From: Collinsella sp. AM18-10
GTDB taxonomy: Bacteria; Actinomycetota; Coriobacteriia; Coriobacteriales; Coriobacteriaceae
Assembly (NCBI RefSeq): GCF_003471585.1
Contig: NZ_QRJO01000001.1
Coordinates: forward strand, 186,001-250,000
Direction: 5' to 3'
DNA length: 64,000 nucleotides
Part shown: piece after piece, positions 7,662 through 41,461 of the stretch
How the letters are laid out: the number at the start of each line of letters is the position of its first letter
How positions within the stretch are numbered: the first letter of the stretch is position 1
Program-made: the position numbers and the translations under genes
Notes under the pieces: model-generated
What the model was told of the DNA's origin: nothing
The model's input: only the letters and a program-made list of their open reading frames with translations
The model's database searches: none

Positions 7662-8022
7662 TGCTGAAATCCTTTCTGTAAAAGGCCTACAACCCATTAA
7701 TAACCCGCGTCCGTGCGATACGCGAGTTTATTAAGGTTTATATTCTCTTTATCGCTCATTTTATTCATTTTGAAAATACCTAAGCGGCGAACGGTCGATT
7801 TTACCCGCTCAGCGTAAAGAAGCCCAGTTCAGGCATATCTACGCCATTTACGTGCAACTTTATTTAAATAGAGCAGGGATTAGACCAGATTATGCAAACT
7901 ATATCTTTGCTAAACACAAAACGGACAGCGCAATATCTTACTCGCACTATACGCGATTCTATACATTAATTTGACGAGTATGCACCCCTGCAAAAACATG
8001 GGGCTTTTCATCCAACATAAGG

Positions 8023-8246
8023 GATAGCCGATCGCGCTTCACCCCGCGGCAAGCGACTGCGAGTTCGCAGTATGGAACTTTACCGTCGGCTTCTGCATGA
8101 ACGCTGCCGACGCCCTTTCGCTCCTGCGCGCCCAAGCAGCCGAGAACGCTAACGGCGCCACTGTCAACCTGGCCACCCTCAACAACGGCGCCGCCAGCCT
8201 TTTCGCAAAGTACCGTGCTGGTTCGCTGGCTTTGAGGCCTAAGTGA
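8023..8246 (+). pseudogene. Possible gene remnant, unrecognised
   Basis: A plus-strand frame running from an in-frame TAG just before 8023 to TGA at 8244-8246 reads as protein-like (AVWNFTVGFCMNAADALSLL, then ...AAENANGATVNLATLNNG). Its composition is much less arginine-rich than the opposite strand. It has no start codon with a ribosome site; an internal ATG at about 8095 would give only some 50 residues. It looks like the 3' end of a lost gene. I do not recognise the family. Confidence 0.3.
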
Positions 8247-8252
8247 GCTTTG

Positions 8253-8339
8253 CTATTTGCCAATTTTTGTATGATTTGGGTCAAATCTATTTGTCAATTT
8301 TTGTATGATTAGGGGCAAATCTATTTGCCAATTTTTGTC
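8253..8339. repeat. 34-bp iterons upstream of the DUF4143 ATPase
   Basis: Two full 34-bp direct repeats (8253-8286, 8287-8320) and a third partial copy (from 8321), each starting CTATTTG(C/T)CAATTTTTGT. The first two contain TATGAT, which resembles a -10 box. They end 14 bp before the ATPase start, so they are good candidates for operator or promoter repeats. Confidence 0.75.
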
Positions 8340-34003: not shown

Positions 34004-34047
34004 TTCATCTGAAGTAGCGAAAACCACGGCATACCTTTAAACCAGAA

Positions 34048-34076
34048 GAGCCCGGCACCGTGGTGGTACCGGGCTC
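34048..34076 (-). terminator. Displaced original terminator of tRNA-Arg
   Basis: GAGCCCGGTACC pairs with GGTGCCGGGCTC (one mismatch), followed on the minus strand by TTCTGGTTT. It lies nine bases beyond the duplicated tRNA 3' end, where the tRNA terminator should have been before the island inserted. Confidence 0.7.
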
Positions 34077-34084
34077 GGCAAATC

Positions 34085-34132
34085 TCTGGTGCCCCCGGGC
34101 GGATTCGAACCGTCGGCACCCGCTTTAGGAGA
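34085..34132 (-). repeat. Attachment site: duplicated 3' half of tRNA-Arg(CCU)
   Basis: 48 bp identical, except one base, to 41384-41431 in the intact tRNA gene. It covers the anticodon loop, T arm, acceptor 3' strand and CCA. The 5' half of the tRNA is missing here, so this is an attachment-site copy, not a working tRNA. The true tRNA lies 7.3 kb away on the same strand. Confidence 0.9.
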
Positions 34133-34456: not shown

Positions 34457-34582
34457 TTAGCGACGGTGGCCTTTCTTTTTGGGCTTCGAACCCTGCTTGA
34501 GTGCCTTGGAAAGGCCGACAAGGGCCGTGAGGAGCGAGACCATAGCGGTCAGGAGCTTCACGAGCTCGGTGAAATCGGTCAT
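34457..34582 (-). CDS. 41-residue membrane peptide (holin-like or toxin-like)
   Basis: ATG 34582 lies eight bases after GGAGG in a strong ribosome site (GGGAGGTGAT). The product begins MTDFTELVKLLTAMVSLL, continues with a second hydrophobic stretch (TALVGLSKAL) and ends with a very basic tail (KQGSKPKKKGHRR). A short acidic start, one helix and a Lys/Arg tail are typical of small membrane toxins and holin-like peptides. An inverted repeat (GGGCAGAGCC at 34420-34429, complement at 34608-34617) flanks the gene. An alternative start at 34588 is too close to the ribosome site. Confidence 0.6.
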   Translation of the reverse strand: MTDFTELVKLLTAMVSLLTALVGLSKALKQGSKPKKKGHRR

Positions 34583-34793
34583 GGGCATCACCTCCCATCG
34601 AATGGAGGGCTCTGCCCGGCACGAGGGCTGCCGACAGCGAGGATGATTTTATCAGAGTGGTTGGCCCTCTCCGATCAATCCACGCTCCTCACCCTCGCGA
34701 AGAGTGCGAGCATGGCAGAATCGGCACTAAACGGCAGTGCGTTAGGGCACCGACGACGAGCTTTCAAAAACTAGCAAGGCGTGTCGCCGTTGC

Positions 34794-34837
34794 GGTACCG
34801 GGCTCGACAAGCCTCTGGTGCCCCCGGGCGAATTCGA
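34794..34837 (-). repeat. Second, degenerate attachment-site copy inside the island
   Basis: 44 bp matching 34065-34108 with about four differences. It includes the distal terminator arm (GGTACCGGGCTCG) and the first 24 bp of the tRNA 3' end (TCTGGTGCCCCCGGGCG...), after which similarity stops. Because it contains sequence from beyond the tRNA, it points to an earlier or tandem insertion. Confidence 0.65.
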
Positions 34838-34881
34838 CCCCCCCCGCGGGAAATTGGTGACGCGGGCGCCGGCGGCCCGAA

Positions 34882-35104
34882 TTGGCCGAGCGCGACATGG
34901 CCTGCAGGGGACAGACCAAGCGCTTGGAGAGCGCCCGCGTACGCGTCGCGGTTGCCCGCCGGATCGAGGAGGTCGGACACATGCGCGACTACCCCGACCG
35001 AATGGGCGAACTTGAGCGGCGGCTCAGGAGGGATGGCATCGAGCTCGCGAGGTCGAAGGGCGGAGCCTCCAGTATCGCTCCCGCCGAAGGCGGGCAAGAT
35101 GATT
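34882..35104 (+). pseudogene. Remnant resembling a relaxase C-terminus
   Basis: The plus frame reads SARVRVAVARRIEEVGHMRD, then PDRMGELERRLRRDGIELAR and SKGGASSIAPAEGG. This resembles the C-terminal segment of mobilisation relaxases, where a helical stretch leads to 'LRxxGIxxxRxxGGxSYxxP'. The similarity is judged by eye. The frame then runs into the hairpin at 35094 and loses protein character. If correct, the island once had mobilisation genes. Confidence 0.3.
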
Positions 35105-35126
35105 CCGTGCAACGGAATCATCTTGC
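35094..35126. repeat. Perfect 15-bp hairpin with 3-base loop
   Basis: GCAAGATGATTCCGT, loop GCA, then its exact complement. No T-run follows on either strand. It lies at the end of the relaxase-like remnant. Confidence 0.7.
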
Positions 35127-35482
35127 TTGCATGGGGCGAGCCGGTTGGCCAGGCAATGCGAGCCCAGGCAGATGTGCGCCGGTTGAGCCGACGCCGAGAA
35201 GACGCGATCGATGGGGAGCGTCGCACGACGGCGCTCGGCGGCCCGGCGCGAGAGGCCCCGCCCGGCGACTACGGCGGAGCGATGGCGACTACTGGAAGCC
35301 ATCGAGCGAAGCCGTTCGGCGAACGGGGCCGGTGTGAGCGGAGGCGGACGAAACGCGACCCTGGGGAGCGTTGCCAGGGAACCGTAGCGAGAGCGGCGCC
35401 ATGCGTCGCGGGGCCCCGCCCATAAGCGGGACCCATCAGCCGCGAGGCCAATTGTTTTGGCGGCCCTACGATGGAAGCCGGT
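35127..35482. other. GC-rich non-coding stretch of the island
   Basis: About 355 bp downstream of the SEFIR gene. All frames are open for long stretches because of high GC, but none has a convincing start or protein-like composition. It looks like decayed mobile-element sequence. Confidence 0.4.
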
Positions 35483-36400
35483 CTAGAAGTCTATCGTCCC
35501 TGCAACGTCCTCGACTTTCTTCCGATAGGCTGACCGAGCAGCCTCTTCGCGAGCTTGGCGCTTCCGTTCCTTCTCAAGATATTCGGTCTCAAGTTTGTTG
35601 GCCTCTTCCACGCACAAGACGAGGGTGTCACGGTGATAGTCCCTAGCTTCTTCGATGGTGGTCCCATTAAGGATTATTTCGTCGCCGACGACCGATGCGA
35701 TATGGGGCCTATGCATGGTGGTAAATCTTGGCGGCAAGTCCCAGGACTTCAAGAAGAGCTCGCACCACAGAGAGCTGGGGCGTCTCGACAATCGGAACGG
35801 CACTTCGTACAGGGCACTTCCCCTCGTTCCGTCGTTCCTCGGTTCTCCCACCTCATCGACCACAATACCGATGATTCTGATGGGCTCAGAGCCCTCGCCC
35901 TCTTCTTCGCGTTTTTTCGAAGTCGTCTGAGCGATGCGGCGCTTGGGCACAACCGACGGCTTCTTCTTGACCCCATAAAGGGTCGCAAGCAAATCGTTAT
36001 AGCCACGAGACTCGACCCCATCGCCCAAGTCGACCGCCAATTTCCCCTTGAGGAAGGTCGGGAGGCTTTCCTCAACGCCCCCTTCCTTTATTACCGGGAT
36101 AAACTTCCTCTCATTATGCCCAGAGAACAGTTCTCCGCTGATGATATGGCCCTCGTATCCAACCCCACCGATTCTCGCATCGGCCTTCTGCTTATATGCT
36201 GGGGTGCAGACGATAAGAACATAGTCCGACGACCTGACCGACTGCTCCATGAACTGCGGCAACCTGTCACCCAGTTCGAGATCATATTGGTCCAGGACTG
36301 CATCGATCCCGTCCGACAGAAGGCGGTTGGCCAGCGCCTTTACCCATTCGCGGTGTTCTTCGCTTTCCCATGCGTAGGATATGAAAACCTTAGTCAACAT
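35483..36400 (-). CDS. SEFIR/TIR-like domain protein, predicted defence effector
   Basis: 305 residues from ATG 36400. The N-terminal 130 residues have SEFIR/TIR features: KVFISYAWESEEHREWV (box 1), LLSDGIDAVLDQYDLELGD, SSDYVLIVCTPAYKQKAD and RKFIPVIKEGG. The second half (about 165-305) is an unrecognised domain that may sense or bind something, with a charged helical tail (EEANKLETEYLEKERKRQA). SEFIR and TIR proteins occur in phage defence, often degrading NAD. It is the last gene of a three-gene operon, 24 bp after the DUF262/HNH gene. Confidence 0.85.
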   Translation of the reverse strand: MLTKVFISYAWESEEHREWVKALANRLLSDGIDAVLDQYDLELGDRLPQFMEQSVRSSDYVLIVCTPAYKQKADARIGGVGYEGHIISGELFSGHNERKFIPVIKEGGVEESLPTFLKGKLAVDLGDGVESRGYNDLLATLYGVKKKPSVVPKRRIAQTTSKKREEEGEGSEPIRIIGIVVDEVGEPRNDGTRGSALYEVPFRLSRRPSSLWCELFLKSWDLPPRFTTMHRPHIASVVGDEIILNGTTIEEARDYHRDTLVLCVEEANKLETEYLEKERKRQAREEAARSAYRKKVEDVAGTIDF

Positions 36401-36424
36401 GACCCCCAAAGACTAGTCCGAAAT

Positions 36425-38194
36425 CTACAGTCGCTCATATGCCCTCTTCACGAGCTCACCCATTAGCCTCCTGCGCCGACCGAGGAAGTCCTCGTAATCA
36501 AGCTCTTCGAATCCGAGGGGCAGGGCGTGTTCCTCGCAGTTGCGGCGATACTCGTCCTCCCCCAGCGCGTCGCGATACCTACGAACGTACTCATTCGGGG
36601 CATCATCCGAGATGTAGATATTGTTCTGGTAGTCAACGAGGGTGAAGTTACCTCGGTTGCTGCGCTGCGAAAGGTAGCCCTTGACCCTCAGGTAGTTATC
36701 TGGAAACAGATGGTGCTTGTCCAGGGCCTTCTTGGAGCCCGACGAACCGGTAAGCAGCAGCTGAGAAAGAGGGGCCGTGCTGAACAACGCCTTGGCACCG
36801 AGCACGACCTGAGCCGCGACGAAGCCCCACCAGGTCGGGCCCGTCGCCTCGTTTGCGTCGAGGGAGCTGGGCAGCGTGATGGAGAAATAATCGTCCGTCA
36901 TGATGGCGGCGAGCCTACGGTCGAAGTACGCCCGGAACTCATCGGCGGTCTCAAGGCGCGAGACGTCGTTAAGCTGCTGCTCGAACTCGGATTCGAAGGA
37001 CCCCACATAGAGCCCCGTTATGGCTGCGGCGAAATACCAGCGCCGCACGAGCCCGCGCACAGCCAGTGGCTCCATGTCGAACTCATAGCGCCCGATAAGG
37101 TAGAACGCATAGCAGAACATGAGCGCGTTGCCCGACCCCACCTGGTCAGAGCAGACGTAGCCCGCCTCCGCCAGCGTGTTGATGAAGGCATGCCAGTTGT
37201 TCAAGTCAAGCACGAGATCGAGGGCGCGACCGAACGTGGCAAAGTTCTCAGCTCGCGTCTCGGGCGTCGTTTCCTTTGTCTTGAGATCTCGCCCGCGAAG
37301 AATCTGGTAGGCATAACGCAGGCGACCCCTCTTGAACCCCACGCCCACCGTGGCGCGAATGATATGCGTCGGCGAGACGGTCATGAGCGGGTTGTATGAG
37401 GTGCCCTTTGCGGGCGCATGGCTCATGGCGCAGAACTCCTCTATACGCTCCCTCATGGCAGGTTCGTAGACCGAAAGCAGGGTCATGATGAAGTCATCCT
37501 GCTTAAGCGCCTGCCCTTGCGAGTTCACACGCACAAAGATGTCCGATACGGTCTCCTCGTCGGCCGATTCGGAAATCTCCAGCGTCGGCAGAAGATAACG
37601 CTCAAGCCCGAGTAATGCGTTGAGCCCGCTCTCGACGGCATCCTCGCCGCCATCGTCGAGTTCGGGTTCTCCCTTTTTGGCATTCGCCTCGTTAAGGCGC
37701 TTGATGAACGCCCTGCGATAGGCGCTCAGCTTGTTGTCGTGGTTCGCCGCGAAGGCCTCGGATACGTCCGGCACATAGCGCGAATCCTTCTCGGTCGAGG
37801 CGTCGGCATTCTTGAATGAGCGTGCGATGGGGTCGTAGGCGACCTTCACCGTTCGCTCCCTGAAGTTCTTGTCTCGCACGGACACGCCGTACAGGGAGCT
37901 CAGAAGGGCAGTGAGTCTCTGCTGTCCGTCGATGACAAGGGACTTGGGGACGGCATACACCTTTTGGTTCGAGCCTATGCCAGACTTCTTGCCCGCGTTG
38001 TCGCTCGGAGAGTCCCACAGCATCACATAGCCAATAGGGTATCCGCGGAGCATGGAATCAAGCAGGTCGCGGACCTTTTCGTTGCCCCACACGAAGGGTC
38101 GTTGCAGGTCGGGCAGACCGATCTTGCCCGTCTGAACGTCCTTCAGGATGTTACCAACCTCCAGCGATATGGGGTTATAGATGGAATTTGGCAC
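36425..38194 (-). CDS. DUF262/HNH (GmrSD-like) protein
   Basis: 589 residues from GTG 38194, which shares its first base with the stop of the upstream MmeI-like gene (TAGTG). The N-terminal DUF262 ParB/Srx-like NTPase domain has DLQRPFVWG (29-37) and IDGQQRLTALL (88-98). The C-terminus carries an HNH/DUF1524-type nuclease motif, DKHHLFPDNYLR (about 490-501), followed by NFTLVDYQNNIYISDDAP. GmrSD-type enzymes cut modified phage DNA; many DUF262 proteins act in defence islands. Here it is placed between a restriction-methyltransferase and a SEFIR protein, so it may act with them or independently. Confidence 0.85.
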   Translation of the reverse strand: MPNSIYNPISLEVGNILKDVQTGKIGLPDLQRPFVWGNEKVRDLLDSMLRGYPIGYVMLWDSPSDNAGKKSGIGSNQKVYAVPKSLVIDGQQRLTALLSSLYGVSVRDKNFRERTVKVAYDPIARSFKNADASTEKDSRYVPDVSEAFAANHDNKLSAYRRAFIKRLNEANAKKGEPELDDGGEDAVESGLNALLGLERYLLPTLEISESADEETVSDIFVRVNSQGQALKQDDFIMTLLSVYEPAMRERIEEFCAMSHAPAKGTSYNPLMTVSPTHIIRATVGVGFKRGRLRYAYQILRGRDLKTKETTPETRAENFATFGRALDLVLDLNNWHAFINTLAEAGYVCSDQVGSGNALMFCYAFYLIGRYEFDMEPLAVRGLVRRWYFAAAITGLYVGSFESEFEQQLNDVSRLETADEFRAYFDRRLAAIMTDDYFSITLPSSLDANEATGPTWWGFVAAQVVLGAKALFSTAPLSQLLLTGSSGSKKALDKHHLFPDNYLRVKGYLSQRSNRGNFTLVDYQNNIYISDDAPNEYVRRYRDALGEDEYRRNCEEHALPLGFEELDYEDFLGRRRRLMGELVKRAYERL

Positions 38195-41022
38195 TATAGT
38201 TCACCGACCTTCTTGGCGTACAGGTTGAAAAGATGGGCGACTATCTTCTCCTCGTCCCCACCGAAGTCGACGCCATAGGCAGCTTCGACAGCAGCGTCGA
38301 GCGCCTTATGCGCAGACATCAGCTCGGGGAAGAACGTTTCGTTCTTGGGATCGTACATGTCCGCGAGCGTCGCACCTTCTTGGGCATCCCGGGCGTCGAG
38401 CACGGCTTGGGCGCAACGCTCAACTTCTTCGCGTTGGGATTCCGTGGGCTCGGGCCAGACGAAGTTGTTGTAGTCAATACCAGCCGAGTACTGATAATCA
38501 TCTTTCAGTCTTCCGGTCACGACCCTAACCCATGCATTATGAAATTGGGACTGCAACACCCCATATTGATAGAGAGTTGCATTTGGGATAAGACGAACTT
38601 TATTGCTACAAAAGACCTCAGCATCGACGAACCCCATTGGGATGTATCGCCTTCGGCTTGATGAAACCTCTGGTATCAAGATTGAATCTGTATCCGACAG
38701 GATTTCAGTTCCAAAATGGGCAGGGCACTCTGCAGCCTTAACGGTCTGACTTCTCTTGCTCTTGAGCCGATACCGGCGCACCGCTTCAACCCTTTCCCTG
38801 CATTTAGGCAGATTCTTTAGCTCATCCCAATTTGCGTTCCCAAGCCATAAACACCAACGGCTTTTGCCACGGATAAATTCTTGTGATCCAAGCCACTTGT
38901 GAAAGAATTTCTCTGCACCAGGTTCAATTTGCAAGAATTCGATTTTCTGCTCATCAGTGAAAAGGTAATTGCCGTCGTCTATAGGCTGGGAGCCTATTCC
39001 CATTTCCGGAACATCTGATAATGGCTTACTTCTGCTGTAGACAAAAACGTCCGGAGCGTCTTTAAGATACGCATTGATTCTGGCTACGGAAATCTGCTCT
39101 TCGTCAGAATCGGGCGTTGCGTGATAGAAGAGCGTCTTGGCCCCAACCTCGCGCGAGAAGCCCACGATGACGCAGAACACGTGTGCCTTGTCTGCCGCCT
39201 CGTTGTCCCAGCGGAAGGTGTTGTGCGCGAAGTCGATATGGATTCCCAGGTCGTACAGGGGTTTCCAGAGGTTGGCGACCTGCTCCCCCTGGCAGATGGA
39301 GTTGGTCGAGACCAGGGCGCAGCGCGTGCGCTTCCCTTGCGTGAACCTCGCGGCCTTCATGTACCAGGCCCCGCAGTAGTCGATGTTGCCCGCGTTCTTC
39401 GCGCCATCGAAGACCTCAAGGAGTTCGGCCTTCTGCTCCTTGGACTGGTTGCGGGCCCCGAGGAAGGGCGGGTTGCCCACGAGGTACGTGAGGTCATCGG
39501 GGAACACCTCGGACCAATCGGTCTTGAGGGCGTTGCCCTCATGGAGGTTGCTGAGGCTCCTGAGCGGCAGGAAGTCGAAGTCATAACCGACGTATATCTC
39601 CTGCGTCTTTCGGAGCATCTGCTCCTCGGTGATCCAAAGGGCGGTCTTGGCGACCGAGACGGCGAAGTCGTTAATCTCGATGCCGTACAGTTGATCGAGA
39701 GATACGCGGACGGGGCTGTCCTGCGCAATGACGAGGGACGTCTGCCCCGCGTTGCCGGTCTCCTCGCTGAGCTCGTCCTCGATGATTCGGTTCTCGATGG
39801 TGCGCAGCTGCCGGTACGCCTCGGTAAGGAAGTTGCCCGAGCCGCACGCGGGGTCGCCGATGGTGATGGAGGCAACCTTGTCGTGCAGCCTCGCCAGGGC
39901 CTGCTTGCGTTTCGCCGCCGTCCTTTCGCCCTCGGCCTCGTGCAGCTCATCCCACAGCTCGTCGAGGAAGAGCGGCCTGAGGCAGCGCTCAATGTTCTCG
40001 ACGCTCGTGTAGTGCATGCCCCCGGCATGGCGGGTCTCGGGGTTCAGCGTTCCCTCGAACACGCCGCCGAAGATTACGCCCGAGATCTCGCGCCAGTCGA
40101 AGTCCTGGGACGCGTCGGTGATGGCCTCGAGGATCTCCGGGGTCATCTGCGGGACGATGATGGAGGAGTCGGCGAACAGACCGCCGTTCACGTACGGGAA
40201 GGCCGCGAGGTCCTCGTCCATGTACTCGTCCCTCTGCTCTAGGGGTGTGTCGATCGTCTCAAACAATTCGACCAGTTTGCGGCGGAGCTTCGCGGGGTCC
40301 CCCTCGCAGTACCTGCCGAACGCCTGGTGCGATTGCAGGAGGTCGGCGTCCTCGGCGTAGAGCAGGAAGATGATTCGGGTGATGAGCACGTTGAGGGAGC
40401 GCTGCTCCTCTTGTGCCCGCTCGTCCTTCTCCTCAATATGGTGATACTGCTTGGCGAGGGCATCGTAGAGCCTGGAGACGTAGGCCCCGGCCTCGATGGA
40501 GAGCTGCTGCTCCTTGTGCAGACGGCTCGTCTCGTTGGAGGTCAGGAAGGACAGGAGATACAGGCTGTCCTGGAGCTCTTCGAGGGAGAACTCCTGCACG
40601 GTGTCCTCGGGCCGCTCGTTGTCGAGATCGTAGAGGCGGAAGGTCCCGAAGTTGCACGTCATTACCCAGCGGGGGCGCTCGGAGTACGGCAGGTGCCGCG
40701 CGTACCACATGGCCTGCTGGAGCGGCGTCTCCATGCCGCCGTTCCTGGGTTCGGGCTTGTCGAGGTCGATGCCCCACGACTTCTGCTCACACAGGAAGTT
40801 GTGGTCGGAGACGAACACGTCGATGCGGCGGCCTCTCACCTTCCGCTCGAAGTCGACGAAGCTGTCTATGGTGTTGGACGGGATGCCCAGGACGTTGATG
40901 AGCAGGTCGACCCAGAACTTCTGCGTGTCCTGCTGCTCGTTGTTGGAGCCCGCGGGGATGGCGGCAAGGCGCTTCTGCCACCGCTTGACGAACTCCTTTG
41001 CCTCTTTCTTGCTGGCAGGCAT
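38194..41022 (-). CDS. MmeI-like type IIL restriction-modification enzyme
   Basis: 942 residues. A single chain with nuclease and methyltransferase functions. The N-terminal PD-(D/E)xK-like site is RRIDVF...CEQK, Asp68, Glu79 and Lys81. A helical spacer follows (about 150-380). The gamma-type N6-adenine methyltransferase has DPACGSGNFL (about 391-400) and the catalytic NPPF (about 515-518). The target-recognition domain (about 620-860) and a C-terminal helical region end the protein. In MmeI enzymes one recognition domain directs both cutting and protection, so no separate methylase is needed. AGGAGG before ATG 41022 is strong. It is the first gene of the operon. Confidence 0.88.
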   Translation of the reverse strand: MPASKKEAKEFVKRWQKRLAAIPAGSNNEQQDTQKFWVDLLINVLGIPSNTIDSFVDFERKVRGRRIDVFVSDHNFLCEQKSWGIDLDKPEPRNGGMETPLQQAMWYARHLPYSERPRWVMTCNFGTFRLYDLDNERPEDTVQEFSLEELQDSLYLLSFLTSNETSRLHKEQQLSIEAGAYVSRLYDALAKQYHHIEEKDERAQEEQRSLNVLITRIIFLLYAEDADLLQSHQAFGRYCEGDPAKLRRKLVELFETIDTPLEQRDEYMDEDLAAFPYVNGGLFADSSIIVPQMTPEILEAITDASQDFDWREISGVIFGGVFEGTLNPETRHAGGMHYTSVENIERCLRPLFLDELWDELHEAEGERTAAKRKQALARLHDKVASITIGDPACGSGNFLTEAYRQLRTIENRIIEDELSEETGNAGQTSLVIAQDSPVRVSLDQLYGIEINDFAVSVAKTALWITEEQMLRKTQEIYVGYDFDFLPLRSLSNLHEGNALKTDWSEVFPDDLTYLVGNPPFLGARNQSKEQKAELLEVFDGAKNAGNIDYCGAWYMKAARFTQGKRTRCALVSTNSICQGEQVANLWKPLYDLGIHIDFAHNTFRWDNEAADKAHVFCVIVGFSREVGAKTLFYHATPDSDEEQISVARINAYLKDAPDVFVYSRSKPLSDVPEMGIGSQPIDDGNYLFTDEQKIEFLQIEPGAEKFFHKWLGSQEFIRGKSRWCLWLGNANWDELKNLPKCRERVEAVRRYRLKSKRSQTVKAAECPAHFGTEILSDTDSILIPEVSSSRRRYIPMGFVDAEVFCSNKVRLIPNATLYQYGVLQSQFHNAWVRVVTGRLKDDYQYSAGIDYNNFVWPEPTESQREEVERCAQAVLDARDAQEGATLADMYDPKNETFFPELMSAHKALDAAVEAAYGVDFGGDEEKIVAHLFNLYAKKVGEL

Positions 41023-41090
41023 ACCGGACCTCCTGCGTCGTCATCTCTTTCGGACAATTTTAAGGGGTAAGGGTGGCACCACGGACGGAA

Positions 41091-41170
41091 GGGCGAGTTT
41101 TCGACGGTCCACGGTGTCGCAGGGTCCCAGGCAAAACCCGAAGACGCCGGGGACCGTTGGAAACTCGCCC
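41091..41170. repeat. 80-bp inverted repeat upstream of the defence operon
   Basis: Arms at 41091-41110 and 41151-41170 (GGGCGAGTTTTCGACGGTCC against GGACCGTTGGAAACTCGCCC) with two mismatches. It lies 70-150 bp upstream of the MmeI-like start. Confidence 0.7.
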
Positions 41171-41192
41171 ATCTCACAGCAACGTCATCCTA

Positions 41193-41261
41193 GGTTTTCA
41201 ACGCTTTCCATGGCCGAAGGGCTTCTTATAAGCCCGTAGGCTGTGGGAAGGGTTGGAAACC
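41193..41261. repeat. Second inverted repeat upstream of the defence operon
   Basis: GGTTTTCAACGCTTTCC (41193-41209) pairs imperfectly with GGAAGGGTTGGAAACC (41246-41261). The arms share the GTTTTC-AACG core with the neighbouring 80-bp repeat. Confidence 0.55.
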
Positions 41262-41293
41262 GGACTTTGGGCATAGCCCTTCACAAAAAAACT

Positions 41294-41376: not shown

Positions 41377-41385
41377 ATTTACTTC

Positions 41386-41461
41386 TGGTGCCCCCGGGCG
41401 GATTCGAACCGTCGACACCCGCTTTAGGAGAGCGGTGCTCTATCCCCTGAGCTACGGAGGC
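41386..41461 (-). tRNA. tRNA-Arg(CCU)
   Basis: 76 bases with encoded CCA. The acceptor stem is GCCTCCG with CGGGGGC (one G-T pair), the D arm GCTCAGGGGATAGAGC, the anticodon stem CCGCT/AGCGG with loop CTCCTAA (anticodon CCT), and the T arm GACGGTTCGAATCCGCC region with TTCGAAT. Its 3' half is duplicated at 34085-34132, which makes it the integration site of the island. Confidence 0.95.

Follow-up and report, generated by a model that had tools for sequence, protein, structure and literature searches.

A three-gene MmeI-led operon of Collinsella as a probable example of modular stacking rather than a conserved system

Do the genes that stand behind a restriction enzyme form one fixed defense system with it, or are they separate layers carried in the same operon? 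This question is raised by a 64,000-nucleotide stretch of DNA from Collinsella sp. AM18-10 (contig NZ_QRJO01000001.1, positions 186,001 to 250,000; hereafter the window), which encodes an MmeI-type enzyme, a DUF262/HNH protein and a SEFIR/TIR protein. The three open reading frames (ORFs) are intact, lie on the minus strand and are packed in one row:

38194..41022, minus strand: first gene, MmeI-type bifunctional restriction-modification (R-M) enzyme of 942 residues, recognized from five MmeI Pfam domains
36425..38194, minus strand: second gene, DUF262 (GmrS-like) and His-Me/HNH protein of 589 residues, recognized from PF03235 and motif residues
35483..36409, minus strand: third gene, SEFIR/TIR protein of the bSEFIR family, recognized from the Pfam domains TIR_2 and SEFIR and from PADLOC bSEFIR

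We read the locus as an MmeI-led defense operon whose two add-ons are missing or exchanged in relatives and whose parts work as separate layers, and give this reading a probability of roughly 0.6. It is best described as independent layers stacked by cassette exchange, because each follower occurs with other partners and each part without the others, and because MmeI recognition domains differ between loci at which DUF262 identity remains 95-97%. The trio is a real operon and an example of modular stacking, not a conserved system. The observed basis consists of gene order, packing, domains, motifs, fold matches and varied followers at one tRNA site. In the proposed scheme, the MmeI enzyme would mark host DNA at its site and cleave whatever DNA lacks that mark. 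The DUF262 protein likely carries out nucleotide-driven sensing and cutting of otherwise modified phage DNA, by analogy with BrxU and TgvAB. The SEFIR protein probably acts last, its consumption of nicotinamide adenine dinucleotide (NAD) killing or stalling the infected cell.

The stop codon of the MmeI gene and the start codon of the DUF262 gene have one base in common (TAGTG). Two starts are available to the SEFIR gene, ATG at 36400 (305 residues) and TTG at 36409 (308 residues). The ATG leaves a gap of 24 bp to the DUF262 stop, and the homologue P0001 starts at the equivalent position; ATG is the likely start and TTG a possible one. The three genes would be read into one shared transcript. 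They sit on a 7.3 kb island bounded by tRNA-Arg(cct) and a 48-bp repeat of the tRNA end. An earlier first-pass annotation of this DNA had described one packed unit, with this overlap and gap, on a tRNA island, and the ORFs, ARAGORN and the repeat bear this out.

The same site holds an MmeI gene in four Collinsella loci (G077, G315, G161 and the window), with varied genes behind it. MmeI is followed by a 150-residue protein in G077, by DUF262 in G315 and by DUF262 and SEFIR in the window; in G161, the gene of a 147-residue protein is inserted between MmeI and DUF262, and SEFIR comes last. A flank like window 35454-35075 stands directly behind the followers in G077 and G315. The nuclease and methyltransferase domains of the four MmeI proteins are 97-99% identical. 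Their recognition domains differ, with 63-71% identity between three types; G161 and G077 have a common one (97%). For the window, G315 and G161, these domains predict three different MmeI sites. The landmarks of the site are:

41386..41461, minus strand: tRNA-Arg(cct), integration site, found by ARAGORN and Rfam tRNA
41384..41431, no strand: island boundary repeat, copy in the tRNA gene, repeat family D1
34085..34132, no strand: island boundary repeat, far copy, repeat family D1, 98% identical to 41384-41431
35075..35454, no strand: non-coding flank immediately after the followers, 87% and 90% identical to the G315 and G077 flanks
L077 8314-8763 and L001 9565-10005: 150-residue and 147-residue protein, respectively, directly behind MmeI

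The 150-residue protein of G077 has no Pfam match. Together the 147- and 150-residue proteins have 21 relatives, and within the string ERNRIIHSFP the residues R82, R84, I85 and H87 are invariant in seven sequences. The string would fit the Rx4H motif of HEPN RNases, which makes the protein a candidate small HEPN-like effector.

Could the genes simply lie side by side in a defense island, with only the mobile site in common? Other tRNA-Arg(cct) islands do bear other cargo, such as a C5-cytosine methyltransferase in G079, and the trio is rare, its members being found apart. Against such chance cargo stand the one-base overlap and the short gap on one strand, and the same DUF262 gene is joined directly to MmeI in G315, as is one with 69% identity in G342. 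Other DUF262/GmrSD or Mrr proteins take the equal position behind other MmeI genes. We consider chance cargo unlikely and keep to stacked layers within a real operon.

The MmeI protein has its domains in the order nuclease, helical, methyltransferase, target-recognition and C-terminal. Its residues 6-938 align with the MmeI structure 5hr4 (E 1.3e-182), and the motifs CEQK, DPACGSGNF and NPPF are intact, from which we infer that it would methylate and cut DNA at its own site. What stands behind MmeI was surveyed at 49 loci, 48 of them with a readable end, window included (L143 has no C-terminal hit). Followers were chosen mechanically as the longest ORF; some are possibly spurious (67 and 70 residues, in L128 and L139), and some contigs end shortly after MmeI (L117). 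At 21 of the 48 loci an ORF starts close to the MmeI stop, from 8 bp upstream to 9 bp downstream of it. Directly behind MmeI, a DUF262/GmrSD or Mrr protein is found at seven loci: the window, L078 and L130 (same-kind DUF262), L084 (canonical GmrSD), and L106, L127 and L134 (Mrr domains, partial in L127, with only Mrr_N, and in L106, with only Mrr_cat). A further canonical GmrSD ORF behind MmeI, in L131, has a listed start that is probably wrong and was left out of the seven. The pairing of MmeI with a modification-dependent kind of nuclease, drawn in the first-pass annotation from this locus, thus recurs in 7/48 MmeI loci. Other close followers are the 147/150-residue protein (L001, L077), DUF3644 with a restriction-like domain (L080), a YhcG nuclease (L111), DUF6414 (L110), a sub-threshold endonuclease VII match (L113) and a DUF2971 match at threshold (L141); apart from L138 (below), the remainder are unassigned.

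The DUF262 protein matches Pfam GmrSD_N and has the motifs QR, DGQQR and FxxxN, which are on the published GmrSD motif list (PMC11411939). H494, H495, N516 and N525 are invariant in 20 aligned DUF262 sequences and give an HH...N...N pattern. The best match of the predicted structure is BrxU, spanning to residue 587, and the invariant residues together with this model match make a C-terminal His-Me/HNH (DUF1524) domain plausible. The best PADLOC models are HEC-05 (E 2.3e-30), which has been equated with BrxU (PMC11411939), and PDC-M55C (5.4e-26). Of the defense-system callers, whose use the first-pass annotation had proposed, PADLOC gives bSEFIR for the third gene; in the DUF262 protein, HEC-05 and PDC-M55C reach only about residues 11-256 out of 589.

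Partners of the DUF262 protein were read in a set of 396 genomes of the class Coriobacteriia. At cut-offs of E 1e-10 for DUF262, 1e-40 for MmeI and 1e-8 for SEFIR, hits were found in 47, 44 and 4 genomes, respectively, two of the SEFIR hits being partial. The partner set comprises 21 loci in 20 genomes with a near full-length match at at least 49% identity; shorter pieces at that identity (G162, G199, G373, G374) were left out. An R-M gene precedes DUF262 on its strand, no more than three genes away, at 14 of the 21 loci, and is of type III at seven, MmeI at three, a fused HsdR_N/N6-methylase at three and type I at one. R-M genes also adjoin DUF262 in nine of the ten loci read, out of 24, in a viral collection. 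Among 14 plasmid hits three were read: one is flanked by a methyltransferase gene and HsdS genes, another follows BREX genes and the third lies near a phosphorothioate restriction gene. DUF262 of this kind accompanies restriction genes in general. Published work likewise has DUF262 proteins accompanying R-M systems, mostly of type I (PMC4619093, PMC11411939). MmeI and same-kind DUF262 occur in one genome 6 times against 2.2 expected (p 0.016), a figure that ignores kinship and serves as background only.

The SEFIR protein matches PADLOC bSEFIR (PDLC03957) over residues 4-266 (E 7.4e-71). Its model matches the fold of a bacterial SEFIR domain of known structure, with almost all structure matches falling within residues 4-148, and PMC12322248 lists SEFIR with NAD depletion. 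The C-terminal part had been described in the first-pass annotation as an extra, unrecognized domain that might sense the other two proteins. It is not extra, and no evidence for such sensing was found. The bSEFIR model covers most of this part, and a TIR or SEFIR Pfam domain is also present in 114 of the 120 listed homologues, out of 998 hits; this count is a fairer check than a set of 19 homologues that were chosen for near-full length. The C-terminal part also occurs in homologues that lack the other two genes on Enterococcus plasmids, in one behind a type ISP enzyme and in one from a Thoeris-like operon. The idea of a new sensor domain was rejected, this part being a regular piece of the bSEFIR family. 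Separately, in G046 (L085, about 7899-8300) there is a stretch 46% identical to the C-terminal part; it lacks a match to the SEFIR domain, and Eco57I-like methyltransferase genes lie in the same region.

Relatives of the SEFIR protein were sought at several levels, and one search gave 2885 hits. Within the genus one of 43 genomes has it, family-level searches gave 1/140 and 1/65, only already-known loci, and a search in the phylum gave 2/396 matches (33% and 39% identical). Hits occur in 127 plasmid records, of which two regions were read against an incomplete plasmid gene table; in these, from two Enterococcus plasmids, some 540 bp separate the SEFIR relative from the next listed gene, and no R-M gene is in view. 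In the viral collection, a single SEFIR sequence as query found no relative, and an alignment as query found 36 loci, two of them read (L144 and L148). The L148 relative, 31% identical over residues 7-277, is a protein of 494 residues with phage-like genes around it. Among named phage records there were five hits, each covering less than 80% of the query.

Where the SEFIR gene is full-length in the class, its position might point to another relation to the restriction enzyme. In G362 (L079), a full-length relative lies behind a 1678-residue type ISP enzyme with a 33-bp gap, and in all three full-length class loci (window, G161, G362) SEFIR comes last behind a single-chain restriction enzyme, MmeI or type ISP. 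MmeI might thus hold SEFIR, or in relatives the HEPN-like 150-residue protein, silent until a phage block of restriction releases it, much as with PrrC; that R-M loci may be coupled to toxins has been proposed in print, PrrC being the example worked out there (PMC3506569). In its broader form, the SEFIR family would be fail-safe guards of single-chain R-M enzymes (MmeI, type ISP), set off by phage anti-restriction. If such guarding were true, one short operon would restrict unmodified and modified DNA and punish the blocking of restriction. The protein P0121, described below, links the MmeI start to the SEFIR end and would fit. Guarding sits poorly, however, with the R-M-free surroundings of the relatives on the two Enterococcus plasmids, with the relative in a Thoeris-like operon (L144), with MmeI kept without SEFIR in G315 and G077, and with SEFIR not standing directly behind MmeI. 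We regard the guard role as quite improbable here, and the family-wide version as equally doubtful.

P0121 is a 210-residue metagenomic protein that consists of the first 95 MmeI residues and about the last 129 SEFIR residues, joined at a short stretch in which the two window genes resemble each other. It may be either a relic of a deletion in the operon or a mis-assembly. Either way it hints that MmeI and SEFIR lie near each other in one more strain.

The Thoeris-like operon (L144 6530-8909, viral collection) carries a ThsB-like TIR gene, a ThsA-macro gene and then, after a 6-bp gap, a full-length SEFIR relative that is 57% identical over residues 5-308, as if SEFIR served there as an extra Thoeris TIR protein. 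By extension, the SEFIR protein of the window might do no killing by itself and instead make an ADP-ribose signal for an effector encoded elsewhere. A ThsA-macro gene was found in none of four genomes searched (including G161 and G362), with the control below cut-off in one of 14 genomes, which may count against such signaling; a search for the SIR2-type ThsA (STALD) was also empty in the four genomes, and is uninformative since its control matched nowhere. We judge this signaling role very unlikely, and retain separate layers with SEFIR as a probable NAD-consuming last step.

Several observations weigh against the layered operon. The full trio is found in only one of the 396 class genomes (G161 = L001, C. 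bouchesdurhonensis) in addition to the window. The first-pass annotation had held that the grouping would be accidental if homologues rarely occurred together; for the trio they occur together in 1/396, with SEFIR in 4/396. A fixed three-gene system was rejected as a general statement, and what remains of the earlier proposal is a set of components suited to unmodified DNA, to modified DNA and to an abortive response. No ORF starts within 9 bp of the MmeI stop in 27/48 loci, and in L138 the close follower is a thymidylate synthase, no defense gene. Seven of the 21 DUF262 loci have no close upstream R-M gene; three of these are near-identical copies behind an acetyltransferase ORF. Pfam GmrSD_C does not reach the HNH part of the DUF262 protein, and the root-mean-square deviation to BrxU is large: the domains match, the arrangement does not. 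A consensus scan of the operon strand gave no promoter-like match, and terminator-like matches within the genes are at chance level (10 against 7.2 expected, both strands). Finally, a C5-cytosine methyltransferase is present in 12/20 DUF262 genomes, G161 among them, and in 39/60 others (Fisher p 0.79); the latter were hand-picked from families f1, f3 and f5, outside the 47 DUF262 genomes, and at least one (G089) holds another GmrSD protein (L131). Given this equal frequency, the DUF262 protein, if of type IV, is no broad cutter of 5-methylcytosine (5mC), or host sites escape. Avoidance of 5mC as a sign of DUF262 targeting was tried and rejected, there being no difference between the genome sets.

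The remaining features lie in the leader and at the far end of the island:

41088..41173, minus strand: long leader hairpin upstream of MmeI (inverted repeat I1, leader fold, four-locus alignment)

This hairpin is kept in the alignment of the four Collinsella loci. The 238-nucleotide leader (41023-41260) folds better than 200/200 shuffles (z -3.7), and the whole leader is present in 3/42 genomes of the genus, each time ahead of the same MmeI. A second, shorter hairpin (41192-41262) recurs near tRNA-Arg(cct) in G145 and G079 (L207, L208), whose islands hold other cargo, the methyltransferase in the case of G079; it may be a recombination site of this island type. The stretch 34768-34840 is a degenerate second copy of the tRNA end and the stretch upstream of it (79% over 73 bp to 34039-34111), perhaps the trace of an older insertion. 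Four smaller island ORFs (34466-35425) have no Pfam match, and no integrase was recognized among these four.

One genus and one insertion site thus offer a natural series of one restriction enzyme with varied accessories and recognition domains. If this is true, a general question becomes approachable: are the genes behind restriction enzymes independent layers or enzyme-dependent guards?

How does the locus compare with known systems? A literature search, mostly outside subscription journals, found no paper pairing MmeI with DUF262, none pairing SEFIR with DUF262, and none joining bSEFIR, NAD and phage. The third gene resembles PADLOC bSEFIR in its SEFIR domain and in the greater part of the C-terminal region, and differs in being the third gene of an R-M operon and in its length of 308 residues against 412 model positions. 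BREX with embedded BrxU gives complementary protection against unmodified and modified phages (PMC8565348); like the operon as read here, it is a methylating defense locus that includes a DUF262/His-Me type IV enzyme, whereas the partner here is a single MmeI-type enzyme and a SEFIR gene is added. BrxU cuts DNA with 5mC, 5-hydroxymethylcytosine (5hmC) and glucosylated 5hmC (glc-5hmC), whereas the DUF262 family here coexists with C5 methyltransferases. TgvAB in the type I R-M locus of VPI-2 (PMC11411939) and RloF of C. jejuni (cited in PMC11411939 and PMC4619093) are likewise GmrSD-family genes inside R-M loci; TgvAB needs two proteins, whereas one fused protein stands behind MmeI here, with no type I genes. 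PrrC with type I R-M (PMC3506569) pairs a suicide-type gene with an R-M locus, as the operon would with SEFIR; it differs in toxin fold and R-M type, and the link here is one of gene position. The combination of MmeI, DUF262 and SEFIR is a variant of the pattern known from BREX with BrxU, type I R-M with TgvAB, and R-M with PrrC.

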